Source: Styela clava (Eukaryota > Chordata > Ascidiacea > Stolidobranchia > Styelidae). Taken from it: a stretch of 64,000 nt of DNA. Where the stretch lies: assembly GCF_964204865.1 (NCBI RefSeq), contig NC_135263.1:10957426-11021425 (forward strand), written 5' to 3'. Of the stretch, positions 7,405 through 32,108 are shown piece after piece. Position numbers and translations under genes: made by a program. Below the pieces are notes generated by a model. It worked only from the letters and a program-made list of their open reading frames with translations. It was not told where the DNA came from and made no database searches. Position 1 is the first letter of the stretch, and every line of letters starts with the position of its first letter.

Positions 7405-8460
7405 TTAATCGCTTTTTGCAAAATAATCTTCTTCTTTAGTTAATCCAGTCATTTGTTCACATACTTTCCAAAGTTTCAGACCAGTTTCTGAATCTGTTGC
7501 AACTGCTTTTAATTGTCTCATCCTCATATTTGAGAAATACCCTCCACTTTTTTCCTTGAGTCCTTTTTGAAGGCAACAGTACAAAATGGTTTGGCAGCCA
7601 TAAAAAAGTGGACGCATGAAGCAAGCTTTTAGTATCAAGTGGCCAACCTTCATCAAGGTATTATGGATTGCTCCTGTACCAAGTTCACTGGCAATCACAC
7701 CAGGATGAAGAGCATAGGTTGATATAGAACTGTTTTCTGGATCCTCGGATCTCAGTCTTTTATTCAGTTCTGTTGTAAAATATACATTCATCAATTTTGT
7801 ATTTGAATATTGTTGAATTATCTGCTGATAAGGGCTTTCCTTGGTAAGTCCTAAATTTATATTACCAAAGTCAATTTTTCCAATTGTATATAAATCAGCA
7901 CTGACATTTACTATTCGAACATGTTGGGAATCTGATGAACTTTTCAAAAGTGGAATTAAAAGATTAGTTAAAAGAAAAGGTCCGAGTTGATTTGTTGCTA
8001 AAATAATATCATTCCCATCATTTGTCATTCCAGGAACAGCAACACCTGCATTGTTTATTAAAATGTCCAGCCTAGGTTCTGTATCAATGAAATTCCTCAC
8101 AAATCTTCTTACATCCGCAAAATCTGATAAATCCAGCTTCATGTAGTGCACCATATCGTTTCCACTCTGGCTCTTGATATCAAAAATAGCTTCTGACGCA
8201 CGCTGTTCATTTCTACTGGCGATAATTACCCGTGCCTTGCGTTTTGCAAGTTGTAGAGCTGTCTCTTTTCCTATTCCATAACTTCCACCGGTAATAAGGA
8301 CAGTTTTTCCGTCAATTTCCAAATCATTCTTGAATACGGGTCCTGTTTTGACAAACTTCATCCACGCATAAGTTATGATAATGAGTAAACAACTCAGCGC
8401 TACCAATAGACCACCATCCATTGCATTCGGGAATCCATATAGGCCGCGAGCCGAGGCCAT
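7405..8460 (-). CDS. Retinol dehydrogenase-like SDR, membrane-anchored, single exon
   Basis: 351 residues without introns. An N-terminal membrane segment (about residues 17-34) is followed by a short-chain dehydrogenase fold: cofactor motif TGGSYGIG at 57-64, NNAG at 136-139, catalytic Ser187 in RIVNVSAD and YSNTK (Tyr218, Lys222). Arg83 in ASRN after the second strand suggests NADP(H) preference. Spacing and the C-terminal HPGVIASELG block fit the RDH11/12/13/14 group, which interconverts retinal and retinol on ER or mitochondrial membranes; other carbonyl substrates are possible. The exact paralogue cannot be fixed. The start MASARGLYG is supported because this start region is repeated at 10.9 and 16.9 kb. 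Vertebrate RDH11-14 genes have introns, so the intronless state is notable. Confidence 0.9.
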   Translation of the reverse strand: MASARGLYGFPNAMDGGLLVALSCLLIIITYAWMKFVKTGPVFKNDLEIDGKTVLITGGSYGIGKETALQLAKRKARVIIASRNEQRASEAIFDIKSQSGNDMVHYMKLDLSDFADVRRFVRNFIDTEPRLDILINNAGVAVPGMTNDGNDIILATNQLGPFLLTNLLIPLLKSSSDSQHVRIVNVSADLYTIGKIDFGNINLGLTKESPYQQIIQQYSNTKLMNVYFTTELNKRLRSEDPENSSISTYALHPGVIASELGTGAIHNTLMKVGHLILKACFMRPLFYGCQTILYCCLQKGLKEKSGGYFSNMRMRQLKAVATDSETGLKLWKVCEQMTGLTKEEDYFAKSD

Positions 8461-11163: not shown

Positions 11164-11977
11164 TGTAGAGTTAAGAGGTTCTACAGGTCCTATTTCTGAT
11201 TATTGGGCTGTCTTGTCAATCTACTTCCGTAGCTAACTCTCGACACAGTAGTAACGCACACATAAACACATCCAACTTGTATGAAAGAACTTGTAATGAA
11301 AGTATATTTACAGTATATACAAGTCACAGTCCAGTAAAATTCCACAATCAGGTTAAAAGTTCCACAGTAGATAGATAAATTTCCACAGCAAGTATAACGG
11401 CAGTGTAACACAGTGAATGTCAAAACTTGATGTCTGTATGTAAATGTATTGTATGTGTATTGTATGATGTGTTGTATGATGTGGTTACAATATATTTGTG
11501 TCTCCAGCCCAACAACAGTACTTAAATTTAGCTACAAGACACAAAAACAATAAAAGAGTATAATTAGCCTTCGACATACAACTCAATTAGAACCTATATT
11601 ACTAAATAACCCTAAACATCCTAACAATCCTAAATTAGCATAATCAAAACCCTACAATTTGCAACTCAATGCCGCAAAGTAATCGCAGCTACTAACAAAG
11701 AAATTCATGTGACCAGGCCTCATTGCACTGTCTCCCACACTAATAAATAGGACATTTAGTATAATACAATAAGAAAAACAAGGGCATGAATACAAATCAG
11801 CTGATATAAGAGAGTATTGCACCATCATTGCCAAGACTTCAAACTTTCTCTCGGTCAGTGACGCTTAATATAAATAAACAAATAAATAAACGAGAGCAAG
11901 TCTGAACATGTTTATCGGGACCAGAATAACTAAAACTAATAGGTTAGTTCACGAAAGTTAAATTTCTGCCTGTAACA
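11164..11977 (-). repeat. 3' LTR of BEL/Pao element
   Basis: 814 bp, same as 15885-16698 by eye. Short frames inside it appear at the same offset in both LTRs and are not genes. Confidence 0.95.
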
Positions 11978-12115
11978 TTCCGGCCTCTAAGTAACTCTGG
12001 GAAAACAGAGTTAATTATAAATAATTCAAATTACAGGCAACAGGAAATTTCAACTTCAATATTAAACATAATAAAACATGAAATGTTCACTAGTAATTAA
12101 AATTATTAAACAGCT

Positions 12116-15100
12116 TCAAGATGACACTGTAAATAGGTAACTGCATTGTACAATCACCATATTTGGAGCCCTTGAACCATCTTGGCATAGAAACTCTTTT
12201 TCAGGAAGTTGAACCATCCACTTTTTCCATAAATCAATAGCTTTATCAGGTAACTGTTGATCCCAGGTAAAATTCTCTGCACATAATTGTTGAAGTAATC
12301 TCTTCATAGGTAACAAAAAAGGACCCAAAATACCAAGAGGATCAAAAATCTGTGCTTGCATCGCTAACAATCCACGTCTTGTATATGGTTTTTGCTCAAT
12401 ATTGACTTCGAAACGAAATGCATCAGTAGATACATCCCACAGTAAACCCAATGCCTTCTGTGACATATTTTCTTCAAAATTAAAACTTATTGTAGTAGGT
12501 GATCTATCTGCTTCAGAGATAGTTTCCAAAACTTCAGGTTGAGAACTCAAAAACTTAGTAAGATGAAATCCCGAACCATCAAGAAGACAGGACAAATCCT
12601 TTATACGATGAACTGCATCTTCCACGGTTGGCTCTGACCGAAGCAAATCATCGACGTAAAAATTTTCATTAATTGCACTTAAAGTTTCCTTGTCCATGTG
12701 ATCTCGATTGTCGACAGCAACTTTCCTCAGGGCATAACAGCATACACTAGGAGCCCAAGAGCCACCAAAAATGTGAACATTCCAACGATACTCTGCAACT
12801 GGTTGATTGTAATCTCCATCTTGCCACCAAAGGAACCGCAGAGAATCTCTGTCTTCCGGTGCAACCAAAACTTGATGATACATTGCAGAAATATCACCAA
12901 TGATCAGAACTTTCTCTTCGCGACATCTTGTAAGGACACCAAACAAACTACTTGTTTCCGGTGGTCCGCTTAAAACATTGTCATTCAATGATATATCGTT
13001 ACACTTGGCAGACGCGTCAAAAACAATTCGAAATTTTCCTCCAACCCCATGGTGAGGAATATACCATGTATTTTTCTTGTGTATCAAATCTTGGTCTTCA
13101 ATTTTACTAGCATATCCTTTAGAGATGTATTCATCCATCTTGGCTTTATATTTTTCATAATATCCAGAATCTTTGACACAACGTCTCTGTAAATTCTCAA
13201 ATCTTCTTTCAGCAACTTGCTTATTATCAGGCAACTCGATATCAGATGACCTCCATGGAATCTTGACTTGATATCTTCCATTCACTTTACAAATTGAATC
13301 ATTCATGATCTTTAAAGCCTGTTTGTCTTCAATAGATGGTAAAGTGTCAAATCCACTGACATTAGAATCCTTTAATTCATTCCGAAAAGCTTGCTCCATC
13401 TGAACATGCAATTCTTCATTATCCAAATGAATCCAATCAAGATGTTTTACACTTGGTTGATGAAATTTACCATCCGGCCCGAATAATGCCCATCCAAGAC
13501 CAGTATGTACAGCAAATGGCTCTGAATTACTCCCACGTCGCATTCCATAACACGCATGAGCTTCAGGCACATCTACACCAATCAGGACTTCAACTTTTGC
13601 ATTCTTTGCATTTGGAAAATTGATATCTTTCAAGTATTCGTATTTCGCCATCGCACTATTAGACGGTATGTTGCATTCCAAATCCGAGGGAAGATCGTCC
13701 AACACTCGAACTCCATGCATCTGAATAATCCTAGTTTCATTGAGTCCTTGAATATTCAGTGACACTTCAGGACTTGATTTATGTTCAATTTTTCCACCCA
13801 ACGTCTTAATTACGAGTGGGTCGCTGTTGCCATGTAAACCAAGTTTCTTCATAAGCTCAGTTTTTATAATGCTAACATTACTGCCATCATCAATGAATCC
13901 ATATGTGTCGTATGATTGATTATCGGTTCCCCATACTCGCACAGGAACCACCTTTCTTCTTATAAAGGTGGCAGGTTTAACTTCAGTAGCACACAACTGA
14001 GTCGAAGTTACACCGGCCTCATTGGCGGTCGTAGCTCCGGCCTCATTAGACCTCACATCTTGAGGTGATTGCACATCTGTACTACCATTTGGTTTCACTG
14101 AATCAGGCTTCTTATTAACGTGCAACAGTGTGTGATGTCTTCTATTGCAACCTGGTGCTCTACAATGATAATTTGACTTGCACTGGCTTGCAAAATGATC
14201 TGGAAGCAAACAATTGAAACACAACTTGTTCCTGGAAACAATCTCGAACATCTCTTTGGCTTTCCTTTTCTTAAATTCTTCACACCTCCACAACTGATGA
14301 TCAGATTTGCACACAACGCACTCTCGTAGTGGTTTTCTCAACGTGGCATTACTCAACTTAGGATCAGCTGTGGGTGCTTTAGAAGATGACTCTTCAGAAA
14401 TAAGAAATGATGACACACTGCGGTTGCCCCGCTGACTCGGACTGTCAACATATTTCTTTCCTTTATGTGTCTCAAGTGCAAGCTTACCAAATCCAGATCT
14501 ATTCACATTTGAAACTGTCTCCATAAATGTAAGAAGAGTATCAAAATTGACAATATCTCCATTGGTGTACTTCTCATTAGCAATGTGAGCAAATTTCCAT
14601 AAATGTTGTATTGGAAATCTCTTTACAATCTTTCTTAATGTAGTTAAATCATCCAAACTACATCTGGCATCATATTCCTTGAATACAATGAGGCAATTCC
14701 GTGCCTGGGTGACCAATTCATCCCATGCATTAACATCATTTGCCTTTATTGAGGGACCTTCAGTAAGTAATTGCATATGTGCATCAATTATGAGATGCCT
14801 CTGACCATAATTTCGATGCAAAATACTTCGTGCCAGTTCATAACCTCTTTCTGCAGGTAAAGAACCACATGACAATATTGCTTCTTTAGCAGAACCTTCA
14901 CAATTGGAAATCAAACAATTCAATTTCTGAGCAACATCCAATTGACTCGAACCAATAAAAGTATTGAACTCTCGAACAAACTCTGTATATTTAAGAATTT
15001 CTCCTTTAAATGTTGTCATCTTAATATGAGGGAACATCAAACCTTGCTTAATGATATTTGCTACATTCAGCATTCCTCCCTGTAAAGCTTGCGTCAGCTG

Positions 15101-15835
15101 CGCCATCGCATGAACAGTGTGATCCGGCATACCATATTCCATCTTAGCATGGCTTCTTATAGTACCCGGTGACTCAATCTTAATTTCATGGGCTGCTGAC
15201 CTGTTTACAGGTTCAACATTCGGCACTTCAGTGGGAATCAAGCGAATGAGATGCTGATTTGTACTGGCATCAAATCTATGATCATGCATAATATCACTCA
15301 CCAAATTCTTCGCAGGTGATGGAATTTGATTCTCATTTGATATGAATGGAACGTTCGGATCCAACATACATCCTTTGTCATCCTTTGCCATAGGAGTAAA
15401 AATTTGCCGCAAGATTCTATTTGCTTTCTCTGGATCAAAGTCCGACACATTTGATGGTTTCATAGGAGGCGGAAGTGACGTATCAGCCACATCATCTTGA
15501 CTTAATAACTTCAAATGATCAGTAATCGGAGTTGACTTGACAACTTTCTCAGAACTAGATTGAGCCTCAAATCCATAAAATGTTGACCCGTCAACAACTG
15601 AACCTTGTCTTGAATGGCTAGCACTTGACAGCATATCATACTCAATTTGAGCTTCTTCAGCATCTGCTTCGGCTGCTAAAGTTTGAGAATCTAATTCAAG
15701 TTGCTTACGTTTCAACTCAGCTTGCTTCAGAATTTGTTGCTTTCTCAGATTTGCAAGTCGCAATCTCTTCTCTGCCTTTGCTCTTTCAGACATACATGAC
15801 TTAGTAGTTGATCCAGAAACAGTTGACATCTTCAC
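12116..15835 (-). CDS. BEL/Pao gag-protease-RT polyprotein, truncated
   Basis: 1239 residues, uninterrupted. In order: a charged coiled-coil N terminus (AKAEKRLRLANLRKQQILK); a gag-like DUF1759 region around 250-420; Cys/His knuckles around 490-570 (CVVCKSDHQLWRC, CFNCLLPDHFASQC); a DUF1758 aspartic-protease-like segment with FIDDGSNVSII; reverse transcriptase with FRIVFDASAKCND and the catalytic FYVDDLL; and the start of the Pao-type A17 region (FDPLGILGPFLLPMKRLL). The frame ends soon after KKWMVQLPE in a short unrelated tail. RNase H and integrase, which follow in complete elements, are absent, so it could not integrate by itself. Confidence 0.93.
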   Translation of the reverse strand: MKMSTVSGSTTKSCMSERAKAEKRLRLANLRKQQILKQAELKRKQLELDSQTLAAEADAEEAQIEYDMLSSASHSRQGSVVDGSTFYGFEAQSSSEKVVKSTPITDHLKLLSQDDVADTSLPPPMKPSNVSDFDPEKANRILRQIFTPMAKDDKGCMLDPNVPFISNENQIPSPAKNLVSDIMHDHRFDASTNQHLIRLIPTEVPNVEPVNRSAAHEIKIESPGTIRSHAKMEYGMPDHTVHAMAQLTQALQGGMLNVANIIKQGLMFPHIKMTTFKGEILKYTEFVREFNTFIGSSQLDVAQKLNCLISNCEGSAKEAILSCGSLPAERGYELARSILHRNYGQRHLIIDAHMQLLTEGPSIKANDVNAWDELVTQARNCLIVFKEYDARCSLDDLTTLRKIVKRFPIQHLWKFAHIANEKYTNGDIVNFDTLLTFMETVSNVNRSGFGKLALETHKGKKYVDSPSQRGNRSVSSFLISEESSSKAPTADPKLSNATLRKPLRECVVCKSDHQLWRCEEFKKRKAKEMFEIVSRNKLCFNCLLPDHFASQCKSNYHCRAPGCNRRHHTLLHVNKKPDSVKPNGSTDVQSPQDVRSNEAGATTANEAGVTSTQLCATEVKPATFIRRKVVPVRVWGTDNQSYDTYGFIDDGSNVSIIKTELMKKLGLHGNSDPLVIKTLGGKIEHKSSPEVSLNIQGLNETRIIQMHGVRVLDDLPSDLECNIPSNSAMAKYEYLKDINFPNAKNAKVEVLIGVDVPEAHACYGMRRGSNSEPFAVHTGLGWALFGPDGKFHQPSVKHLDWIHLDNEELHVQMEQAFRNELKDSNVSGFDTLPSIEDKQALKIMNDSICKVNGRYQVKIPWRSSDIELPDNKQVAERRFENLQRRCVKDSGYYEKYKAKMDEYISKGYASKIEDQDLIHKKNTWYIPHHGVGGKFRIVFDASAKCNDISLNDNVLSGPPETSSLFGVLTRCREEKVLIIGDISAMYHQVLVAPEDRDSLRFLWWQDGDYNQPVAEYRWNVHIFGGSWAPSVCCYALRKVAVDNRDHMDKETLSAINENFYVDDLLRSEPTVEDAVHRIKDLSCLLDGSGFHLTKFLSSQPEVLETISEADRSPTTISFNFEENMSQKALGLLWDVSTDAFRFEVNIEQKPYTRRGLLAMQAQIFDPLGILGPFLLPMKRLLQQLCAENFTWDQQLPDKAIDLWKKWMVQLPEKEFLCQDGSRAPNMVIVQCSYLFTVSS

Positions 15836-15884
15836 TTGACTTTAAACTTTCAAGACAACAGTCGAGACATATATTGTAACTTAA

Positions 15885-16698
15885 TGTAGAGTTAAGAGGT
15901 TCTACAGGTCCTATTTCTGATTATTGGGCTGTCTTGTCAATCTACTTCCGTAGCTAACTCTCGACACAGTAGTAACGCACACATAAACACATCCAACTTG
16001 TATGAAAGAACTTGTAATGAAAGTATATTTACAGTATATACAAGTCACAGTCCAGTAAAATTCCACAATCAGGTTAAAAGTTCCACAGTAGATAGATAAA
16101 TTTCCACAGCAAGTATAACGGCAGTGTAACACAGTGAATGTCAAAACTTGATGTCTGTATGTAAATGTATTGTATGTGTATTGTATGATGTGTTGTATGA
16201 TGTGGTTACAATATATTTGTGTCTCCAGCCCAACAACAGTACTTAAATTTAGCTACAAGACACAAAAACAATAAAAGAGTATAATTAGCCTTCGACATAC
16301 AACTCAATTAGAACCTATATTACTAAATAACCCTAAACATCCTAACAATCCTAAATTAGCATAATCAAAACCCTACAATTTGCAACTCAATGCCGCAAAG
16401 TAATCGCAGCTACTAACAAAGAAATTCATGTGACCAGGCCTCATTGCACTGTCTCCCACACTAATAAATAGGACATTTAGTATAATACAATAAGAAAAAC
16501 AAGGGCATGAATACAAATCAGCTGATATAAGAGAGTATTGCACCATCATTGCCAAGACTTCAAACTTTCTCTCGGTCAGTGACGCTTAATATAAATAAAC
16601 AAATAAATAAACGAGAGCAAGTCTGAACATGTTTATCGGGACCAGAATAACTAAAACTAATAGGTTAGTTCACGAAAGTTAAATTTCTGCCTGTAACA
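15885..16698 (-). repeat. 5' LTR of BEL/Pao element
   Basis: 814 bp with TG...CA ends, next to the right copy of the GAAGT target duplication. It should carry the element's promoter. Confidence 0.95.
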
Positions 16699-16935: not shown

Positions 16936-18267
16936 TTAATGAAGATTGCAACTGGATTGAAAATATTACGCGGAAATAATAAGTGCGCACAGATAGATAG
17001 ATAGATAGTTTATTTCGAAAACTTCATAGCAAACCTAAATTTAAAATGGAGAATTCTGGAGGGCAAGCAAAACCTGCAAAAAAGTTTAAAACATGAAGTA
17101 TCTCATGTGCCTGCCCACCAGCACGCACACAAAAACACAAGCCCAATTAAATGAAGCTTGGGCCAAACTTAAAAAACAAAATACACGATAGTAATAAACT
17201 TTCGGGCTGTTGTACTCTCTTTCAACAATTACGTTGATAATGACCAATACCTACAACCTCATGCAAAGATAATGTGGGGAGTGGAATGTAATAAATTTGC
17301 GACGATAGTCATACTCATGAAGCCATGAAAGCTTTGGGAAAAACCAAGCCACGAAAAACTACACTGATTGCTAGATTGGGCATTGCAGAAAAGGTGATAA
17401 GTGGTTTCATATACAAACAAACGCAAAACCATGGCGGCAAATTCGGTGTGCGGACACTCATAAAAGCAATTATTAGGAAAAACACTAATCACACATGAGC
17501 AGGTCTGTAGCCTAATTGATACATTGACGTGGCCAACATTGTTAAAACAGTACCGGTATACACACAGAGAGAACAAATCAAAAATATGCCACTAAATGAA
17601 TGTTTAAAAATGTTACACTGTAAGTTACACTGCAAACTATTTACACATATATAGTTGAATACTCGGTATTCAAGCGGAATTTCTAGAAATAGCAGTATAT
17701 CATACTCTTTGTCACAAAATAAAATATCTGAATCAATCCCTGTTGTATTCATCTTTCGATTTTGTTATGATGTCCGTATGTTGTCTCAGTTTTCGTATCA
17801 GATTGAAATTTCATATTTATACAGTTGGGAAAGGGAGTTAATAAAACAGCGATAAAGTTGGAGTTTTTATAACATTTATAAAATATTTTTGTTTTTTCTT
17901 CTAATTGATGATTGTTTAAAAACATTAGTTTCAGTTTACAGTATTCGTTCCACAATTTTAACCGCGTAGGATTTGATTTAAAACATGGTACATACAACCT
18001 GACAATTGCGTTTGCTTAAAATTATTTATGTTGGTACGATCAGGTGGTGTTGAAGTATTAAAATAAAGCTAATATTTCAAAAAAACTTCTCTTTACATGC
18101 TATATTTAAATGTTAATAATATAACAGTACTTTACTGTTAAAATTGTAAAAATTATGGTGATTATTATTTTATGTTCTTTTTCCATTAAATAAAATAAAG
18201 CGAATGAAAAATCAAATAGCCTAAGACTGTTTCTGTGTTTCGACTTCTTTAAAAATAGCACTAGCAT
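16936..18267. other. Intergenic with (GATA)n-tailed repeat
   Basis: A (GATA)n run at about 16990-17007 abuts sequence that, on the minus strand, ends AATAAACTATCTATC. This looks like the 3' end of a retroposon on the minus strand extending toward 17300, with no coding remnant recognised. The rest, AT-rich up to the CNOT7/8 start, holds nothing I can identify. Confidence 0.35.
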
Positions 18268-21200
18268 ATGAAGATGCCTGGTCAGAATGCAGATGATCCA
18301 ATCCTCGAAGTTTGGGCATCAAATGTTGACGAAGAATTCAAAAAAATTAGGAAGTTGATTCATCATTATCCTTATGTTTCTATGGTAAGCGTTTTATCAT
18401 ATTGCAACAGGCTGGATGATTACCGGTACAATAATCCATTTTACTGTTATATAATGTTGTATTTTTTATATCCAAGCTTCTGAAAACTAATACCTGGCTA
18501 ACTAACCCCATACCTGACATGAACTGGTCACCGTTCGAGAGGCCGTGGTTTGCCATATGATTAAGCCGTCTTATCGCATTCCCTCTCCCCCGGGATAAAT
18601 ATGAAAATCTTATATAGTTGATTTTCATAAATTTAGACAGAGAAATGGAAACGCGATATTGTTGAAAAACCGAATCGTTGTTTTAGTGGTTTGTCACTTA
18701 ATGTATTTGAACATATAAATACCGGTATAACATCATTTTAACCTGAGAATATGAATTTAATTTCCAGTTCGAATCAGGTAAAAAATATAAATTGAGAAAT
18801 ATAAATTTTTGTACAGTATGGGTTAAATAATGCTGAACTGCTCAGTGTTGAAGTTTTATTCATCTATGTTTTTATTGAAAAATAAGTAAATTTTTTCTCA
18901 TTTTATATATTCTATCATAGTTTGACCCCCAAACCTTAGTCAATGAATAAACCTTTTTTCAACCATTGATGACAAGAATGCGTTCTGAAGACATACTGAA
19001 ATAGTACTTCCTATTGTGTCATAATGAATAGATTTTAAAATATTGGGGTAACTCTCAGACTTCCCTAGTCTGACTGATAGAGGTCAAATGTTGAAGATGA
19101 AAAATTGTCAGATGAAAAATTCTAAATTATTCCTAAAATCAACAAGTAATCATATTGAATATAATCGAATTTAAATGTATCCAAATATTTATTTCATATG
19201 GAAATATCTGTTTGTTCCGATTGTTAAAGTAAAAATATAGGCTTGAGAGTAGGCTTGACCCAGATACTATTACTAATATAAACATTTAATTTAGGACACA
19301 GAATTTCCTGGTGTTGTTGCAAGGCCAATTGGAGAGTTTCGAAGCAATTCAGACTATCAATATCAACTTTTAAAATGTAATGTCGATCTTTTGAAAATAA
19401 TTCAACTAGGATTGACTTTTATGAATGACAAGGGTGAAACTCCACCTGGAATATCAACATGGCAGTTCAACTTTGCTTTCAGTTTGAAGTGAGTTTGTTA
19501 TCAATAAATAGTTCTTTGGTTTATTTTTGTTTTGAAAATTCACCTAAATAGTAAATTGTAAAATAAGGTTTTTATTATAATTCCACCATATTGATTGTGC
19601 CTTTTTTTACATTTTTGAGTAAATATGCCGAAATTGTATTTATACAGTTATATTCAAGACTTTTTATTGCTTAATTTACTGTAATCCTTTCTTGGTATAT
19701 TTTAGAATGTAAATAACTGTTTTTTAACCAGTTTATTTCGACCAGCACTTTTTCTTTTGGTCCAATATTGCATCTATAAATTGGTTCCATTACATTTGAA
19801 CCCATGACAATTGTACCTGTATGCTATTGCACCTATGGAATTTTTTTTGTTTTTCGGATAGTTGAACCCATACTAACCCTAACCCATGGGTTTTAGCACC
19901 TGCATATAGATTGAACCCGTGGATATACACATGGGTTCAAATGTACGTGGGTTCAAATGTACGGTCACCCTATAAATTATATCCAATTGAGCTGAATGCA
20001 TGACTTTAATTTTTCTAATATAGATTTATACATACAAGTTCACTTTTGTGTTTATGCAAAATTTTAGGCATTTTTTATGATTATTATATCCGGTATTTGT
20101 AGGCCTATCTGATTTTTGGGTACTCCCGTAGTGTGAGTACCAGGTTAGGGCATAATTTTATTCCGATTTTCCTTATTTTAGTTCTATTACGAGTTCGGGG
20201 ACTGTCTGTGTTAGCCAAGTGAATATACGCCTTGCCCATAGGTTTTAATCCGTGTTTATACAACTTGTAGAGTAAGCGAACAAAATTAGTTACTTCCATA
20301 TTGGTACACACACTTCTGGACTGGAGCCTCGATTTTTGTATCTAAGTATGCCAGCACAACCCATAAGTACCAAGTTAAAATAAAAGAATGTGTCATAGTA
20401 ATGTATTTGACCCTGTGTAATTTTGAGACGTTTAGATCAAAATATCAATTGAATTAATCATCAAAAAAGTGTAGCGTTAATATTCTTTATGAGTAGGGCC
20501 ACAATTCTGGGAAATATTTTTTCAAATATACTATGCATATTATCATATGGAATGCAATTGGTAACCATATGTTTTATGATTTTATCGTTTCTCTATCTCG
20601 TTAATTTAGCGAGGATATGTACGCCCAAGAATCAATTGATCTACTGCATGAAAGCGGAATTCAATTTAAACAACACGAAGACGAGGGAGTAGAACCTTTA
20701 TATTTCGCAGAGCTGTTAATGACATCAGGCATTGTCCTCATGGATAATGTTAAATGGGTGACATTCCACAGGTTTGTGGTGTTACTGGTAATACCAAAAT
20801 TAAATTCTTTCACAAACGTATATTAAAACAGCACTCTCACACTTTACAACACTTCACAATACCTATATTGAAAAAATTATTCTTTGCTTTAGTGTATGGG
20901 TATTTAAACGGTGCTCATACACTATGCAACTCTCCATAATTTATTAAAAAAATTCACTCCTGTTCCAGTGTATCAGTATTTTTATACAATTAATTGCAAT
21001 TGTAATGGCCATTCACTTGTATTGTAAATGGTTTATTTTTGAGTGTATGACTCTAAATTTTGCGTGTCTTAGTTAATTTTTGTTACCAACTTTATGTCAG
21101 CAAGCATGTATATTGATATACAGGAGTAGGAGTTAGTTTTGAAATATTTTTTTCTGATTGGTATTTTTTGTTAAATAACAAAGTTTTTTTTTTTTGCTTC

Positions 21201-22658
21201 GAGATATTTGAGCATACTGTATAGTTGTGAATGGTATGAATGTATTGTACCTCTTTGATCATGTTTGGTTATGCATTTCTCAAACAGCCAATGTTTGAGT
21301 TTGCATGCCTTCCATACTTATTCATATAAATATTTCTCTTTCATTTACAGTGGATATGACTTTGGATATTTATTGAAGATATTGACTAATAACAACTTGC
21401 CATCTGAAGAAAGCGAATTTTTTGAATTGATTAAAATATTTTTTCCAAATATTTATGATGTTAAATATTTAATGAAAAGCTGCAAAAATTTGAAGGTATG
21501 AAAAACATGATTTTTTTAAAAAGAGAATTATTTTACTTTTGTCTTGGTTAATTTAAAAAATTTTATTTTTCGAGTTTACTTTTCTTTGTACTCAATTATG
21601 TTATCTATTCAACAAAACAAAGCATATACCTATTTCTGTTTTAACAGGTATTGTAGATGAAATGAGACTTATCAAATGCCATTGATAAATGGATTTCTAA
21701 TCTTAATCTAGTATTATATTGGATCATGCTAAATCTTAAGTGTAAGATTTAAAAAAAAATAATGTTTCTATCTCTATGTTCTTATGAGTATCAATTTCAA
21801 ACTTTCATTTCGCTTTCATTTATATGATAGCGTAAATAAATTCCTGAACATAGTTAAAGTTGGTTGAACTGTGGAAACTTCATAAATCACAGCAATAAAA
21901 AAATTTCCATGTTTGATCTCACAGTTGGTGCTCCACTTTAATTACCGGTAATATTAATTGTCCCACATGCGATTTTTTTTCAAGTTATTCAGTGTTTCAC
22001 ACCTTCTTAGTTTCTTCGTCAGAACGCTAATGGCATTCTATCCTATAACAGGGTGGTCTTCAAGAAGTTGCTCAACAGTTAGAAATTGAAAGAACAGGAC
22101 CACAGCATCAAGCTGGGAGTGATAGTCTACTTACAGGACAAACATTTTTCAAGATGAGGGAGGTAATGAAGTTGCTTTGTTAAAAAAAAAGTTGATTTTT
22201 CATGAATTGATAGGGATGTAAGGTTGAAATATAGTTTGGAAACATTGATGCCAAATTATCCAATTTTTTTTGTGACAATTCGCCCTTCGATCAATTTTAT
22301 GATGTGAAATTTTATGGTGTAATAGGTTGTTTGTTTGAAATTGTGGTTAACTGTAAGAAACGTTTTTAAAAAATTTTTTTTTTCAAATTTTATGCAAGAC
22401 TTCTTAGCTAAGGGTAGGTGTCTAGTTTCAACCTCATTGCCAGAGCATCCATAATCATCCCAATTAGGCGTAATTATATTCAGACTCATTTCAATATTGT
22501 CGGTCATTTTTATCTAATTGACTTTCATCCTATATTCACAGATGTTTTTTGAAGACCATATTGATGAGACCAAGTACTGTGGCCATTTATATGGCTTGGG
22601 CAGTAGTTATGTACAGAACGGTAATCCTTATAGTGCAGAAGAATTTAACAAAAGTTGA
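18268..22658 (+). CDS. CNOT7: CCR4-NOT deadenylase subunit CNOT7/8 (CAF1)
   Basis: Exons 18268-18384, 19295-19488, 20610-20771, 21351-21495, 22052-22162 and 22542-22658 give 281 residues; human CNOT7 has 285. It is the DEDD-type 3'-5' exonuclease that shortens mRNA poly(A) tails within the cytoplasmic CCR4-NOT complex. The catalytic set is complete: Asp40 and Glu42 in DTEFPG, Asp161 in GYDFGYL, His225 and Asp230 in [10 protein letters not shown], the last three at human numbering. Also present are [19 protein letters not shown] and [12 protein letters not shown]. The start MKMPGQN fits the family N terminus; a second Met two codons on is an alternative. The ancestor of vertebrate CNOT7 and CNOT8 is equally possible. 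Intron 1 holds a SINE fragment and intron 2 a repeat. Confidence 0.95.
18490..18606 (+). mobile_element. SINE fragment in CNOT7/8 intron 1
   Basis: Contains GAGGCCGTGGTTTGCCATATG, AAGCCGTCTTATCG and CCCCGGGATAAATATG, which match the minus strand of 51830-51945 and 36925-37050. Only the 3' half of the family consensus is present; no B box is seen. Confidence 0.6.
20117..20310 (+). repeat. Dispersed repeat in CNOT7/8 intron 2 (pair at 33.9 kb)
   Basis: Starts TGGGTACTCCCGTAG, has ACCAGGTTAGGG, then GATTTTCCTTA and GGGGACTGTCTGTGTTAGCC. The reverse complement occurs at 33895-34055. The terminal TGGGTACTCC and ACCAGGTTAGGG words link it to the small MITE family at 4.3, 50.2, 56.2 and 59.5 kb. 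Confidence 0.6.
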
Positions 22659-23994
22659 CTGCTAACTGTGGATCACCAACTAAACATTGTTTATCTGCAT
22701 TAAATGCACCTAAGTATAGGGAATGTGTACTGCGCCAAGTGAAACCACATGATGCATTAATATTGAATAATATGGAGAGAGTGCCCATTGCTTTGCAAGA
22801 CATGTTTTAATGTAAATCAAGCCCATATGCTTTAATACGGATAGATTATGGCTTAATAAGGAATTTGTTTAAATGAAAGCCAACATGAAATGAATTATAA
22901 TATCTTGATTTTTGATGAGGATCAATTAATTGTTATTACTCAAATAACAAGGTTAGCTATAGGTGGTGTACTTGTATCTGGACCTGATTTAGCTTTCAAA
23001 CTGGACAAGTTGTATGGCACTTCATTGGAATACTTTACTGAATATTTAGACAAAGGTTACTTGTATATCCACTGAGCTCTCAGTGCGTGCTTGTTATTAC
23101 TCAGCTTATTGCCCTGGCAATTCATATCAATCATATTCTTCGGGATGAAGAAAGAAAATTGCCTATATCGTACATGTTAGCTCCTTTATTCAGTATGTTT
23201 TGCTCCACTCATGCATGAAGAATTTATTTGTTATCTTATGTGAATGTAACCATATTCGCATAAAACGTTTGCGTCAAGTCAATATATGTGCTACCGTATA
23301 TTATATTCAGCCGAGTTGCATCTCTCAACTAAATTTTGAAAATACCACCCAGACTCCCTCTTCGATGCCGGTATTGAAGTATGTAATATGATTGTGAATA
23401 AATAGCCCACGTCTGTGATTTGCATTCTCTGTCATTCTGTGCTATGGAGACAGGTCGATAGCAGGTTTAAAATATATTTCGTATGGTTATAGAGCTTCTT
23501 GGGAATATTACATTTAGCACTCAAAACCATGACGTACATTTATTCTGCGAGTTTTTCAATACTGAAAATAATTATCAAGTATATCTAATAATCAATAGAA
23601 CATAGAAAAAAAAATATTCATAATATAGAAGTTTGAATGCAAAGTGGCAGTTTCAAGTTTTTTAGCTTTTCAACTAAAATTGAATACTACATGGTGGTCG
23701 CTAGGAAAGCAGAAAATTTGAAGGTCTGACAAGATCACGAATAAATGCGTATAGGTCGAATTGGAATGATATCCCACCTTCAAGTTAAGTTAACCTTCAA
23801 AACTCCTGCAAGCTCGTACTCCTAGGTTGAGACATTGCACGGACGACATTTTTCGCATCTATGAGTATAACAGATGCTTTTAAAAAAATCTGTTTTTCTA
23901 GCGACCGCCCTGCTATTGAAACAATAAATTCCTCTTCCCTCGGAATGTAGATGCGTCGGATATTTATAGATTGCAGAAGACGACGAAAAACTAA
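22659..23994. other. Intergenic between convergent CNOT7/8 and atlastin-like genes
   Basis: Should contain both 3' UTRs. Open stretches at 22671-22810 and 22890-23075 (+) match no family I know and are within chance for this base composition. No repeat is identified. Confidence 0.4.
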
Positions 23995-26900
23995 TTATCG
24001 TCCAATACCGCCGCCTGGAAGAAATACTCTTCGAACTGTACGAGTTACTCTTACACCATTGGGGCCCTGTTGTACCTGCTAAAACGATAATTACGAATTT
24101 AAAGTTTTTTTACTGAAAATGGGTATATTTTTGGAAGAATATTTGCAGGTCTCCTCTGTATCTGTATACTTGGAAGAACATCAATAAACTAGTGTAAATA
24201 CATTTGTATTTAGAATTATTGCACGAATATTGAAATAAATGGAATTCAACTTTAAACCAGCTATTTATAAATTGTGAACGCGCAATTACCTGGAACGTGG
24301 CGAGCGAAACCTGAAGTATACACTTGATACCTGACGGGGGTGTTTTTCTCAAATCTTAAATTTTCGCATTAGTAGCGAGGGCTTATTTTGAGTATTGTTT
24401 CATCAACAACACCTGCTGACAGGTAGCATTTGAATGATATCTTACCGTATGTTCCAACACAGCTCCGACTAGATGAGGGCCTTCGGGAGACCCATGGTTT
24501 CCCAACTGCTAAAAATAATAATTTGGATTCAATTAATTGTGCATATATTTCGGGTTGTTGTGAAAATAGTATTTATTTCTGTAAGTATATAAGACTTTAG
24601 ACACCAACATCCCCTATCTGAGTACATTTATATGAAACAATGACCTATGTTAATCATCACCATCTGAATAAATACGATAAGATATGAATAACTTGTGAAA
24701 TTTACTACTTACCATTAACCGTTGCTCGAGACGATTGCGTTCAATTGCAGTTTGCTGAATATGATGAGATTTAGTTAGAATTATGAAAAAAATAAATCGA
24801 AAAGTAAACAAAGCCAGAGACAGAACAAATCTGTCCAGAATTGGTTGTAGATATATATATAAATAAATAAATATGCATTTATACAGCAACTAAAGATGCG
24901 AAAGAAAATTGAAGAAAGTTACATTCCACATTATTAATATTTCACATTTGAGAAAGCAGCCTAAGGCATTAATCTCGAAATTTTCATCCAATTCAAAATG
25001 CTTATATACTATATATATATACGCAACGGTTTTAGGAAGTTCAAGACGGCGGTTTGTATTAAACAATAGTAGAGGTACTACGGTAGTTTTGAGTGTAGAC
25101 AATTAAGCATAAAATGCTACCTGATCCCTCATTGGGCGCATCGGCTTATAAGGCGCACGATCGATTTTTTGAAGGAAAAATGGGATTTTAAGGTGCGTAT
25201 TATGTTTCGTAAAATACGGCACTCTTACCGCCATATTCCTATTCTTGGTACATGCTTCATTGTACATCCTTTCTATAATCTGCATTAGATTTCGTCTGTG
25301 CGTTTCAACCAGATCACTCACAGAAATCGATGATGCTGTAGTATTGAACAGCGATAGGACCGAATGACGAATCTGATTGTATTTTGCCTGTAGTTCATTT
25401 GCATTGATGCCTTTTGCTACCTCCTGTGATAAATGTATATAATTGTAATTTTGAAACTATAGAATTACGCAGATACTGATGAAACGAAAACATAAAATAG
25501 AAGACAAATAGTAAGTTTATGCAAGCTAAAATTATAAAAAATAATCGAGATTGGTGAATGTTTTACTGACGTTAATTTTTTGTTGAAATTGTTTTGCCAT
25601 CTGGTTGACTAATTCTTCCAATTTCTTATTCTGTAAAACGAAAGTGTTGTTGAAGAGAAGCATTAAGTAAATTTTCGCCGAAGTAGGAAAAAGCAAATGT
25701 AAGATCATCATTTGAAGCAACTTTGTCTGCAGAACATTGTCATGTGTAAGTAAAATATAAAATAATACTCTTTAGCGCAACGAATGTACGGTGATTTTTT
25801 GAAAGTATGATTATAATATTATTTACCATATTACACAATGACTATATATTAGGTATATACCTTCACCCTTGCCACATTCCTGTTTTCAGTAAGCGCTTCA
25901 AAATACATTGTTCTGATTCTGTCGTCGAGATTTCCTTTATTCGTTTTCACTAATGCACTTGGCGCGAAAGATGCCTTATCGTTGAATTGAGAACCAACAG
26001 AGGCACAAATTTTGGTATGTTCCTCCTGTAAACTTTTTTCAGCAACTCCCTTTGTTGAATGCTGACAAAACAAAAATTTCGTTTAAGAAATAAACATCTT
26101 CGGTTTGCTTTGGGTAATAAAAAAGACATCTCTGATGTTATGAAATCAACGCACATCGTTTATTCTTTTCCGATATTGGTCAGTCATGTCATTCACCAAT
26201 TTTTGTAACTCTTTCATGTTCCAGTTCTGAAAAAGGTTGTCAAATAAAGTACGGTTTGTCGATATTTGTTTGGTACAAAATAAGCAAGTATGAGTTAAGT
26301 ACACTGTCATTTTTGCTCCTCATTGTTTTAATTCCTGTTAAACAGGAACTGCGCCCATTGATACCTTAACATCAATGCTGCGCCGTTTCGAATGCTGTTT
26401 TGACACTTGACCTCCTGATGGGCATTACATCAGGCTAGTTCGCCATCTTCTCGACAATCCCGCTCTTATTTAATAACTACGACGTCTTACCGGTACAGAT
26501 GTGAATTGCTGTGTTAAACAGGTAGGTCGTTATCTGTACTCTGTAGTTCGATTTAAATCATATACATAACCAGATAACAGATTTACGTTAGTTATTGAGC
26601 TTGTGTCCATATATTTGGGCATTGCTCACTTGATTTAATTTATATTTAATATGTAAATCGATACGTTATATTCTTCAATTTGATATGTAATTTTCCTTAC
26701 CAATGCAATCACAGTTTTAACGCTCAAGTCCTGGGTGAGTAAAAGATGTTAAAAACAGCACATTTTAGACAGCAGTAGAAAATATAACTAAACCTGTTAT
26801 CTGCACTTGTATCGGTATCCCGACAATCATTCAACTTTGTTAAATTTTCATTAAGTTTACCTACCAGAGCTTGAAGGAAGATACTATAAAATACATTTAC

Positions 26901-29900
26901 CTTCTCGTTTTCGTCCTTTAATCCTTTATAATATTCTTTAATATCATTTTGCATCTTTTCATTAAATTTGTTCTTGAGCTTTTCACAGCGTTCAAATATC
27001 GGTGTGGATGTTTTCGATCGGAAAGATTTGATTGCGCCTAAATAATACTGCTGATGACACATATCGAGGTCAGCATCAGATATCTGACCGACTAGTTTCT
27101 GTATTGCAAAATAACGATACTAATCACTTGCGTTTTACGGTGGTAATATGTAACGATACACATACAAACAGTAAGTTATATCTGTTTTTCTCTAGCTGTA
27201 AAGATTGGTTTCAAGGCGTGAATGTTCTAACTAGCGCAATGCTAGACTCATTATAAACAACTAATCGTAGTTACCGAGGAATTCATCAAATACAATAGGG
27301 AACTTGATTTGAATAAATCCAACCACCTGATTATAAGTCCAAAAGAAGATAAATGTATTGATTCAATGATAAAATAATATGCACTACTTACTTTCTCAAT
27401 CTCGGCAATATATTCACACATTTCCCTGTCTGCAATTTCTGTCAACTGTTTTTCTGCTTCTAACTGTAAAATATATAATTAACCGTATTGAGAAAATAAA
27501 CAACTGCACTTAATTAAATCCTACGTAACAATGAAAGCAAGCGTATTGGTAAACGTTCGTAACAGCAAGAGAGTTTAAAAAGTGTGTAAGTATATAAAAT
27601 ATTAATGTAAAATATATTTCATAAATATGATACAGAACTATAGAAAAAGAAAAGTAGCATATTGTTTATTTACTATAAGCAGTGTTTAATTAAAATAAAA
27701 TGCTGATAAAATATCTCAAGACTAGATTTTAGGTATTTTCTATGAATTTTAAATAATTATTGACAATCAAATACGAAATAAACAGAATCTGGTACCAAAA
27801 TGCATGGCTGTTACCAACCATTCGATTATTTGCAGTATCTTCATATTGTCTGTGAAGGTTATTACATTTGTTTGCTAGTTTGTCGCGAAATTCAGTTCTC
27901 AAAGATTCTAGACCGACCCTTGATGACGAGTCAAATTCTTTCAAGGTATTCACAGTAACTTCCCGGTTTATATCCAATATTTCGTCAAACTGAACTCCTT
28001 TTGTACGAACCTGTATCAAATCTTATATTATATATTATGTAGGTTGATTTGAATTATTAGTTACGAAAAAATATGTTGCTAATAATTAATAAATAAATAC
28101 ACGTGAACGACTGCAACGACTTTTCAAATAATGTAATAACGTTTTTGAATGAGTACAAGTGAGTATAAACCATTATGGTAACCATATTCCATAACAGAGA
28201 AAACGTAGAAACGGTCGAAAAATATTGCCTTCAAATTTTCAATTCGAAATAACTTTCCACTGTACTTTTCATGATATTTTTTCAGGTATCTTTTTAGTAT
28301 AATAAATCAATACGCTACATACCCTCATTGTTCGATCATATTTCTTAAAGCATTGTGCACAGACATTTTCATAATGATCCTTGGACGCTTCCTAAATAAG
28401 GTACACCGGTCAAGCAATGCACCTATCCCGTATGTTATAAAAATTGTACTTGATTCTTTAATCGTAAAAACGGTGTAGTAAGCAACGAAAACGGCAATAA
28501 GTTTTATATGTGTATATACAAGAATAAATATATTTTGAAATTGAACGCGTAACAATGTCACGTACATATTCAAGAGAAAACATGTAGTTTACGTTACGTA
28601 TGCACACGCATTTATTGGCATAACTTAATATTATTGATATTCGAAGCATTTTTTGTACATGTAGAACAGTATATATCATGTAAACTTCCCATATGAAGTT
28701 TTATAAATGTAAATCTCTTTTTACCTGCAATAATAGTTTTGGTTCACGTATCACAGGAGAATCGAATAGTTGATCATGAGAGGTCAATAGTTCAAAGATC
28801 TCCATTGGAGCTTTTGAATCCTTGAAGCTCTTTGTTCGATTTAATAAAGTATCTCCGAATGACGACACATATCCACCAAACACCGTTTCTCTGTCTACGG
28901 ATATAAAGTCACAACATGATACACATAAAATACACATTCAAAATAAAAATTACTTCCTATTCCTAACTTGGCCTATGACCATCAAGAATTTTATGAAGTC
29001 ACTTAAGGAAAATCTCAACAATATTTTGAATTTAATTTTTCTTAACCAATGTTACCTCTGTTGTTGTTGTTACAAAATGGATCATTCATGTCCACTGCTT
29101 GTCGATGTGGTAGCAAGAAACATTCCATTTCTGTTTGAGCTGATTTCAGGTTTTTTAACGTCTCTCGTGTTTCACTTTGAGAAGAAAGCTCTTCTAAATA
29201 ACTTTTCCCTCCATCTAATCCAAAACGGTATTTATTTGTTCCCATCCAATCTTGTACCAGAAACATGACTGAATGAAGCTAAAAAAGGATTACATTCTCA
29301 TAAATCCAATGAAACATATACATTACATTATATTCCAGCTATCAATTTTAGTAGATTATTTTTTGAGTAATTTCGTTTCATTGCCTTCAAAAAATAAATA
29401 GAGGAAATGAAAATTTTAGTTCAAACTTGCAAAAAATTGTATTACCCAATTCTCGGCATTTCCTAGTTCGCTTACCTTCAAACTTGTCGCTTTCTTTGCT
29501 GCGACTGCCAAAGCGTAATCCATTGAAATCTGTAAATACAAAGAGCGCAATGAAATACGTAGACATAGTTTATTTTGAACCGTCTGTAAATATTTAAATA
29601 CGGTTTTACTAATACAGATAGGAAGAAAAATACACACGTAAACAACACTTGAAGATTATATTTCATTATATTTATACTCACGCACATACACAGTTTACAC
29701 CAAAAAAAGATTTTTATCAAAAAATAAATATATAAGACTAATGATATGAAAAATTTTCAATGACAAAGTAGTAAATAGATATTGTATATATAGTAGATAT
29801 TGACAAATTGAAAATAGCATCGGATATAACAAATTGGGAATACAGTTTATTTTGTCTTATTTGTCGACTCATATTAGAATATATAAAAAATATATGATTA

Positions 29901-32108
29901 GATACATAAGTTTTAATGATTAATTAAAAACACGGAGTATAGCGTCCAATAATCGAATATTCGGTCTCACCTGCAAATTTTCAAGGTAACATTTTTGCAT
30001 CCTTCGGGAAATATTTACAATCGAAATCGAACTTGCCAACAAGCTCCAGGTAAGTAATTTGACGGAGTTGTGTTCCTTTATCACTTCTTTGTCATCTAAG
30101 GCTACTATGCTCTCCATGATCAACACTCCGATCTACACAGGGAATGAAAAAACGAATGTTTCTTTAAAAGGTTTAATTTCAAATGATAATTTATGGCAAA
30201 ATACGTGCGCATCACATTTGAGTAATACTTGGCCAAACGTGGCACAATCACGCTGTGTAAAAAACTGGAAAACTAACTCTTCAAAAAACATTAGTAAATA
30301 GCGTAAGCAAATAAATTATAAAAATGAAAACAAAGAATACAAACAAAATAATTATGAAAATGATTAAACTCAGATGATATATCTTCTGTATACGTGGACG
30401 ATCGGCTACATCTTAGCAGGCAGCAAATAACTGTAGCGGCAACGTAACTTCATCCAGCAAAAGAAACAATGAAAAAAAAATCGTAGCTTCGAGACCATCA
30501 GTTAGAAATAGCTTTAACCATAGGCGGCAAAAAAATCGACAACATCCAGGCGCACACTATATAATGGCATAGGGTGTAACGAGGCAAATATTGTAGAATG
30601 GATAGTGACAAAATATTAAACTATGACATATTTCATGGGGCATATTTGTCGCTGTTTTGGTTAGGTTTTTTCCATAACAAATTGTTATCTATTAAGTGAT
30701 GTATCGATGCAGAATTGTGTCGATGGTAAAATTAAAATGTAGCTTTTATAATATTCCTCCATGTTCATTTAGCGGAAAGTTAACCCTCAAGCGAAAGACA
30801 GTGAATTCTGTAACTTTATTAAACAATAATCGATTATATTATAATTTATTTTATTTTCGCTCAGATTCACAAAAGCGCCACTGTATAACATAACAGCTTT
30901 GTTATTAATGGATGTATTGGACGGAAATTGGAAGATAGAGAGGCTCAATTTTCGAGATAGTTTGCTGCCCAGATGCTTTACTATCTGACACAAAGATGTC
31001 TTACTCCCACGTGAATAGTAAATGCGCATTTATTTTATAATTGTTACCTTTTCTCCAGATTCAGTGTTTATCATTATCAAGTCATCCCATATTCTTATAA
31101 CAGGTTTGTCGGATTTTCTGTCAATATCTGGTGACTTTCCGATCTCGCTCATCCATCGCTTTCTTTCCCACTAAAATATGGATGTATAACTTAATGCAGG
31201 TATATATAGGCTATATAGGCTTTGACTTGATGTAAATAACAAAAATCAAAAAAGAAAGAGTCGCTCGGCGATTTATAATTTCTTTCAGTGTTCGGTAGTT
31301 TCAGGGCGCTATTCGTGAACGTCATCGGAACGTTTCGAACGAGCCCCTTGTCTGCTGTTTTTGTACGTATTTCCGGCTTCCGTAGTTTGCTTGCAGCTAA
31401 TGCAGAATACGAAATTGACATTTACCGTCACTTTAAGATACAAACCTTCAGATATGGATAATGATTAAAGACGTAAAGGAGCAAAGATTTGACCGACCAG
31501 GCGATGGATTTTCATCACATGGCTCAGCTACTCATTACCGTAATTATTCTCTGGATAAGAAAGAAATTCTCAATTCGGCGAAAATTGTCGACAAAAATAT
31601 ATAAAAAATAACAATGAAAGTTTGGTGCTAACAGGCGATGTAGACTTTTACACTGGTTAATATTTAACAGCGCTGCTCTGTTGCTACATTGCGCTTCGAA
31701 ATTCAGATAATAGCGAACGTAATAGTCAATATTATTGACATCTATGCATCTATGATGTCAATGGTCAGCCAAAAGGCAAAACCGTTTGTTTCATCATGCG
31801 ACCTTTTTTGTAGTGAAAAGATGCTTTTCCGGGTATGGCTAAAGAGAACATCCACGAATAACACATTATATATACACGCTAAAAGACCTTTGTTACAAAG
31901 CAAAACCCAGTAGACTAACCTTTTTAATTTGAAAATATTGATGTAATATATCCGCATTCACATTATTTGATCTGCCATCATGAAAAATGGAAATCACAGC
32001 AATACGATTTTCTTTAATATCTGATCGCAGAGTAATGCTACATAGAGCATTGCGATCAAGTCGAATCTCACCGTCTTTGATGCACGTTATGGATGTTGTT
32101 TTTACCAT
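23995..32108 (-). CDS. Atlastin-like protein with degenerate GTPase motifs and four helical repeats
   Basis: Eighteen exons (minus): 32108-31920, 31170-31048, 30132-29971, 29529-29476, 29278-29056, 28894-28725, 28391-28323, 28010-27819, 27463-27392, 27098-26901, 26226-26155, 26061-25861, 25630-25571, 25423-25229, 24754-24713, 24505-24446, 24310-24290 and 24075-23995. Phases agree and give 727 residues. Residues 1-307 align with the atlastin G domain: KPVIRIWDDLIMINTESGEK, SSISIVNISRRMQ, MFLVQDW, DGGKSYLEEL and ECFLLPH. Nucleotide-binding sites are altered: the Walker A site reads SIFHDGRS at 40-47, the ETTG threonine is missing, DxxG reads ESIV at 111-114 and RD is Gln185-Asp186. Residues 308-660 are four copies of the three-helix-bundle unit, then a short fifth start and a basic tail (TVRRVFLPGGG). 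Atlastins fuse ER tubules using GTP and two membrane segments; no such segments occur here, so a soluble scaffold is the inference. The 5' exon and small 3' exons are least certain. Confidence 0.8.
25229..28391 (-). repeat. Four tandem short-plus-long exon modules (atlastin middle-domain repeats)
   Basis: Short exons of 20-24 codons (28391-28323, 27463-27392, 26226-26155, 25630-25571) alternate with long exons of 64-67 codons (28010-27819, 27098-26901, 26061-25861, 25423-25229), all in phase 0. Long modules share a pattern ending in a heptad helix and an Asn-rich close: YEDTANNRM, YKGLKDENEK, YFEALTENRNVAR and YNEACTKNRNMA. Short modules share forms such as LQKLVNDMTDQYRKRIN and LEELVNQMAKQFQQKIN. 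The unit resembles atlastin's region from about TAKDTYNKKMEEI to its helix ending YIQYIKHNDSKN. Confidence 0.8.

Follow-up and report, generated by a model that had tools for sequence, protein, structure and literature searches.

The subject of this report is a gene on the minus strand of a 64,000-nucleotide stretch of the Styela clava genome (C18:10957426-11021425, hereafter the window), which encodes a relative of the atlastins and appears, from its altered nucleotide motifs, to be a candidate pseudoGTPase of that family. The gene runs from 32108 to 24446 in window coordinates and its spliced model comprises 15 exons and 672 codons with no stop, while the two other frames of the same spliced sequence contain 51 and 52 stops. 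All of its 14 introns are GT-AG, and all exon ends are in phase 0, exon 5 excepted. A preliminary description of the locus had given the gene 18 exons and 727 residues. Its first six exons are borne out in position, strand, GT-AG introns and continuous frame, and 15 exons and 672 residues can be confirmed in total, but its last three exons cannot; the model, open at its 3' end, reaches exon 15 at 24446. The exons are as follows.

Exon 1, 31920..32108, minus strand: start Met, beta1 and the degenerate Walker A sequence SIFHDGRS (atlastin-1 alignment, P-loop profile at E 5e-4, frame).
Exon 2, 31048..31170, minus strand: switch I/G2 exon, without (E)TTG and reading KPVIRIW (atlastin-1 alignment; own profile at E 0.45, not significant).
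Exon 3, 29971..30132, minus strand: G3 exon, in which ESIV replaces DTQG (profile at E 2.2e-8, paralogue-like exon borders).
Exon 4, 29476..29529, minus strand: short G-domain exon (frame, splice sites, position within the atlastin-1 alignment).
Exon 5, 29056..29278, minus strand: G4 exon, in which FLVQDW replaces FLVRDW, followed by GGKSYLEEL and CFLLPH (profile at E 1.6e-12).
Exon 6, 28725..28894, minus strand: end of the G domain and linker (frame, splice sites; the GBP match extends to residue 265 within this exon).
Exon 7, 27819..28010, minus strand: first middle-domain-like exon (profile of nine paralogue repeats at E 0.0011, reverse search at 0.019).
Exon 8, 27392..27463, minus strand: short helical linker exon (frame and splice sites only).
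Exon 9, 26901..27098, minus strand: second repeat-like exon, the weakest (exon rhythm only).
Exon 10, 26155..26226, minus strand: short helical linker exon (frame and splice sites only).
Exon 11, 25861..26061, minus strand: third repeat-like exon (44% identity to exon 13, match at 4.4e-8).
Exon 12, 25571..25630, minus strand: short helical linker exon (frame and splice sites only).
Exon 13, 25229..25423, minus strand: fourth repeat-like exon (match to exon 11 at 1.5e-8).
Exon 14, 24713..24754, minus strand: short helical linker exon (frame and splice sites only).
Exon 15, 24446..24508, minus strand: tail exon (frame and splice sites only).

Profile searches gave no convincing paralogue match for exons 14 and 15 or for what may be a sixteenth exon, on the same strand near 24076, and Rfam gave no match.

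How firmly can this gene be tied to the atlastins? Residues 9-238 of the spliced protein align with human atlastin-1 at an E-value of 4.9e-22 (phmmer), and the Pfam family GBP (PF02263) is matched with 31.5 bits against a cut-off of 21.1, which places the protein within that family; the atlastin G-domain landmarks quoted in the preliminary description are present. PF02841, the C-terminal helical domain that marks a GBP proper, is not among the five Pfam matches of the gene model. Profiles of the individual G-domain exons were built from the genome's own paralogues with the window sequence excluded, and five rounds of shuffled window pieces served as the control. With these profiles the exon bearing the RD motif stands out most clearly in the gene (E 1.6e-12; best shuffle 0.032), and the G3 exon (2.2e-8; best shuffle 0.022) and the P-loop exon (5e-4; best shuffle 0.055) are recognised as well. 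The G2 exon alone is not significant, its E-value of 0.45 being worse than the best shuffle (0.091), and its assignment rests on its position between the other G exons and on the alignment with atlastin-1. Exon borders are also common to the window gene and the paralogues, namely the start and end of the G3 exon, the start of the RD exon and, to within 1-2 residues, the end of the P exon, all in phase 0. The gene would thus probably be a fast-evolving, single-copy paralogue of an expanded atlastin/GBP-like family in Styela clava.

This family is seen in the same genome, which comprises 376.6 Mb in 379 contigs. An exon-by-exon search found 94 matches to the Pfam GBP family on contigs C1, C2, C3, C4, C6, C8, C9, C14, C16 and C17, with local clusters, and none on C18; therefore, the window gene is too diverged for a search of this kind. 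The 94 matches were grouped by eye into some 37 places, 20 of which were read, and motifs were counted over the 18 loci in which all four G-motif exons are readable. Left out of the count were L006 and L008, which are duplicates of L035 and L036, the partial gene L020, and L044, which is without a P exon. Two of the rows, L036 and L037, may combine different genes, because exons of two genes lie in each of these loci. RD and the five P-loop residues that were scored are kept in all 18 loci, DTQG in 16 (L038 has DSQG and L041 YTQG), and the G2 pair of T and G likewise in 16, L030 and L041 being the exceptions. Identity between the window gene and the paralogues is 26-30%, compared with a median of 43% among the paralogues themselves, and a genome search with the window protein gave, besides the locus itself, only six weak matches (28-37% identity). 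Some members of the family are unusual in their own right. L041 (C2:9238500-9246900) has, together with its YTQG, an R for the G2 Thr, and L030 (C16:16009500-16019490) has a D for the G2 Gly; it is possible that such partial changes are early steps to further inactive members. In the gene L047/L020 (C17:2136700-2139500 and about 2139960-2143190), DTQG and RD are intact and there is no P-loop exon in the stretches read, and this gene may be partial. On C2, there are three occurrences of one pair of gene places, near 9.01-9.02, 9.11-9.12 and 9.24-9.25 Mb.

The P-loop Lys, the switch I Thr, DTQG and RD are the residues with which the atlastin family handles nucleotides. The window gene does not carry the set of an active atlastin, that is, a GxxRxGKS P-loop, the switch I Thr, DTQG and RD; it reads SIFHDGRS at Walker A, KPV at G2, ESIV at G3 and QD at G4. 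In the P-loop the Lys and first Gly are lost, in switch I the Thr, in switch II DTQG and in RD the Arg. Only three of the 13 motif residues are kept, two in the P-loop (G and S, by one of the alignments) and one in RD (its D). The alterations at G2, G3 and G4 claimed in the preliminary description are therefore confirmed. Its Walker A reading holds in that all three registers proposed are without the catalytic Lys and without the first Gly; the exact register itself is uncertain, as alignments give ---FHDGRS with gaps and HDGRSNNV without gaps besides the SIFHDGRS proposed at first. A sequencing or assembly error as the cause of the loss was rejected, because four separate exons are altered and the frame has neither frameshift nor stop. 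An alternative exon that would restore GKS or DTQG, which the preliminary description had named as a way to overturn its view, was likewise rejected: a scan of the whole window with four profiles found no such exon, and of the frame pieces of the window that are at least 15 amino acids long, 2844 in number, none contains a literal GxxxxGK[ST].

Because the P-loop Lys, the switch I Thr, DTQG and the Arg of RD are lost, turnover of guanosine triphosphate (GTP) appears very unlikely and its binding unlikely. It is likely, as far as can be judged from sequence, that the window protein is not able to hydrolyse GTP, and guanine nucleotide binding has most probably been lost. Could the protein instead be a working but highly derived nucleoside triphosphatase with a rebuilt nucleotide pocket, or a slow GTPase? 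G45, R46 and S47 do occupy the GKS positions in one alignment, the Asp of RD is retained, and a precedent is at hand in SpoIVA, a pseudoGTPase turned ATPase that is cited in the excerpt of PMC10731463 we consulted. However, all four motifs are lost together, including the Lys, the switch I Thr and the entire DTQG, and this alternative is quite improbable.

Loss of motifs may also simply be the decay of a dead gene, which brings us to the question of constraint. Outside the motifs, columns were taken in which at least 95% of the paralogues are hydrophobic; the window sequence is hydrophobic at 43 of 50 of these and, when slid by 1-4 columns as a control, at 16-26 of 44-49. Part of this excess is built in, since the window sequence had already been aligned to the paralogues. 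The kept fold argued for in the preliminary description agrees with this hydrophobic pattern, and by homology and hydrophobic pattern the fold would be present where the motifs are absent, the combination that defines a pseudoGTPase. The protein branch of the window gene amounts to 3.72 changes per site where the median is 0.26, and on account of this long branch the tree gave no firm placement of the gene; the genome holds no close paralogue usable for the ratio of nonsynonymous to synonymous substitution rates (dN/dS). Both the very long branch and the want of a close paralogue would suit a recently dead pseudogene, whose function is lost and whose stops have not yet accumulated. In a neutral simulation, which applied substitutions only and started from the present sequence, 7.4% of the runs were still free of stops at 0.02 substitutions per site and 5.8% at 0.03, so that a very short period of drift would be compatible with the intact frame. 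At 0.05 neutral substitutions per site, however, none of 500 runs was free of stops. The divergence of about 3.7 per site is far above the neutral drift that the frame permits (less than about 0.05), and therefore nearly all of it was accrued under coding constraint. The frame is thus incompatible with long neutral drift, as the preliminary description had argued against simple decay, and the kept core hydrophobics and the GT-AG borders of 14 introns also speak against a pseudogene, which we regard as improbable.

Behind the G domain lies an arm of predicted helical exons, in which exons 7, 9, 11 and 13 (192-201 nucleotides) alternate with the short exons 8, 10, 12 and 14 (42-72 nucleotides). 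Exons 11 and 13 form a duplicate pair; exon 9 has no significant match to the neighbouring repeat exons. Exon 7 is matched by the window-free profile of nine paralogue repeats (best shuffle 0.016), and in the reverse search against the paralogues it is again found (best shuffle 0.3). Exons 9, 11 and 13 are unmatched by the same profile, and in the reverse search they stay within the range of the shuffles, as do 11 and 13 jointly. A profile of the four exons together finds the middle-domain exons of the paralogues at 0.0009 (best shuffle 0.29), and its best match in PDB is an atlastin middle domain, although a weak one (E 0.017); exons 11 and 13 match nothing in PDB, and exon 7 alone matches no atlastin there. 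A mixed profile of the four window exons and nine paralogue exons matches residues 384-439 of atlastin-1, in the middle domain, at 8e-7. The arm as a set thus looks like a repeated atlastin middle domain, whereas singly only exon 7 is supported. A reading as four certain copies of the middle domain was weakened, as exons 9, 11 and 13 do not rise above the shuffles against the paralogue repeats. In the atlastins that fuse membranes of the endoplasmic reticulum, the middle domain has three helices and is followed by a membrane hairpin. No transmembrane-like stretch was found in the 672-residue model with its open 3' end, the highest hydropathy over 19 residues being 1.36 and lying within the G domain. 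Middle-domain-like exons behind the G domain also occur in the paralogues L031, L029, L045, L032 and others; L031 has three, two of them weak, and L029 has two, one of them weak. No description of this architecture of the paralogues was found in the literature searched.

More than half of the 672 residues lie behind the G domain, and it is conceivable that the function resides in this helical part, the G domain being tolerated as a remnant which only aids folding. Decay in motif columns and in other conserved columns alike would fit with this. On the other side, the G domain retains its hydrophobic pattern well and its RD exon is the part of the gene that can be recognised best, and we hold such a division of labour to be improbable, too.

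We therefore come back to the pseudoGTPase. The gene is probably real, constrained and unusual, and it would be a candidate for class (i) of the pseudoGTPases within the atlastin family. Several points weigh against this reading. The branch is very long, and of the four repeat-like exons only one is matched singly to middle-domain exons of the family. With three of 13 motif residues kept, other conserved columns are kept at 14 of 23 when conservation is at least 90% (Fisher p 0.041), but the contrast depends on the threshold, falling to 21 of 37 at 80% (p 0.054) and 32 of 64 at 70% (p 0.125). As the contrast is weak and changes with the threshold, general relaxation would account for part of the loss; what is suggested is a selective loss of GTP binding, with fast general change as another part of the picture. 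It is also conceivable that an Arg in place of the Lys in the GRS loop and the kept Asp of RD leave some residual nucleotide binding.

If the protein is such a pseudoGTPase, what might it do? It would probably be a regulatory or structural relation of the active enzymes; the preliminary description had spoken of a scaffold or regulator. Atlastin G domains need GTP in order to pair. The empty G domain of the window protein would serve as a fixed docking face, which pairs with GTP-loaded active paralogues or with another partner, and the helical exons behind it would form a soluble arm. The protein would then regulate or cap assemblies of active GTPases and would not fuse membranes itself. This role as a regulator or cap is possible, though we put it forward tentatively.

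With the atlastins (human atlastin-1 and -3, and the genome's own atlastin-like copy L027, which carries GAFRKGKS, DTQG and RDW), the window gene shares the sequence of the G domain and the positions of the motifs, and its helical exons as a set have their best, weak PDB match in the atlastin middle domain. It differs from them by the alteration of all four motifs and by its four repeat-like helical exons, and no membrane-like segment was found in the 672 residues of the model. Its paralogues in the same genome (for example L029/L031, L032 and L045) have the G-domain exon borders and middle-domain-like exons in common with it, but have kept their nucleotide motifs. RNF112 is a RING protein and, like the window gene, atlastin-like; the Pfam scan of the window model lists no RING. 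An arginine finger of this atlastin relative is treated in an excerpt of PMC12012479, where the human and mouse proteins are weakly active and the authors link this to missing key residues of G2 and G3.

PseudoGTPases as such are a known kind, being defined and classified in the part of PMC5593906 at hand, and quasi-IRG proteins, septins and p190RhoGAP provide examples. The quasi-IRG proteins (IRGQ/FKSG27, and zebrafish irgq1-3) have lost the GTP-binding motifs and kept the remaining homology within an expanded GTPase family (excerpt of PMC1297648). The window gene is likewise a motif-less member of an expanded GTPase family, although a different one; IRGQ is conserved between man and mouse. 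The septin Spn7, a class I pseudoGTPase (excerpt of PMC10731463), and the domains pG1 and pG2 of p190RhoGAP (excerpt of PMC5593906) also have a GTPase fold with several G motifs lost, serve in assembly or as structural domains, and belong to other families; absence of binding was measured for pG1 and is predicted for the window protein. Among atlastins, no pseudoGTPase was found in the open-access papers listed, as judged by titles and the beginnings of abstracts, and a look for GTPase terms in an excerpt of PMC13172515 gave nothing.

If true, a family member having the fold and no nucleotide would offer a natural means of testing what G domains do besides hydrolysis, and whether inactive regulators arise repeatedly in large-GTPase families, as they did in IRG proteins and septins. 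In a more speculative view, which we consider rather unlikely, atlastin-like GTPases with helical middle-domain arms would have been expanded to a large set in a lineage of tunicate type, perhaps for cell-autonomous defence or membrane work, and one of them would have turned into a GTP-free regulator pairing with active members, comparable among atlastins to the pseudoGTPases of the quasi-IRG proteins and septins. No description of the large atlastin-like set in this genome was found in the literature searched. A review asks, in the excerpt of PMC9005921 consulted, whether invertebrate atlastins have assumed GBP-like defence roles, and a genome with a large atlastin-like set would be a place to test such a takeover.

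Other features of the window may be listed briefly.

7405-8460, minus strand: uninterrupted frame of 351 amino acids for a short-chain dehydrogenase (Pfam adh_short).
11175-16585, minus strand: retrotransposon of BEL/Pao type with a Pao peptidase domain (Pfam).
18265-22660, plus strand: deadenylase gene of CNOT7/CAF1 type (Pfam CAF1 on its first exons), convergent with the atlastin-like gene.

The BEL/Pao element is flanked by repeats at about 11175-11864 and 15896-16585, which lie 4721 bases apart and give identical translated pieces, and therefore its insertion is probably recent. Outside the window, an exon at G000:C9:16179895-16180164 matches glycosyl hydrolase family 6 above the cut-off; to our knowledge, animal members of this family are known from tunicates.

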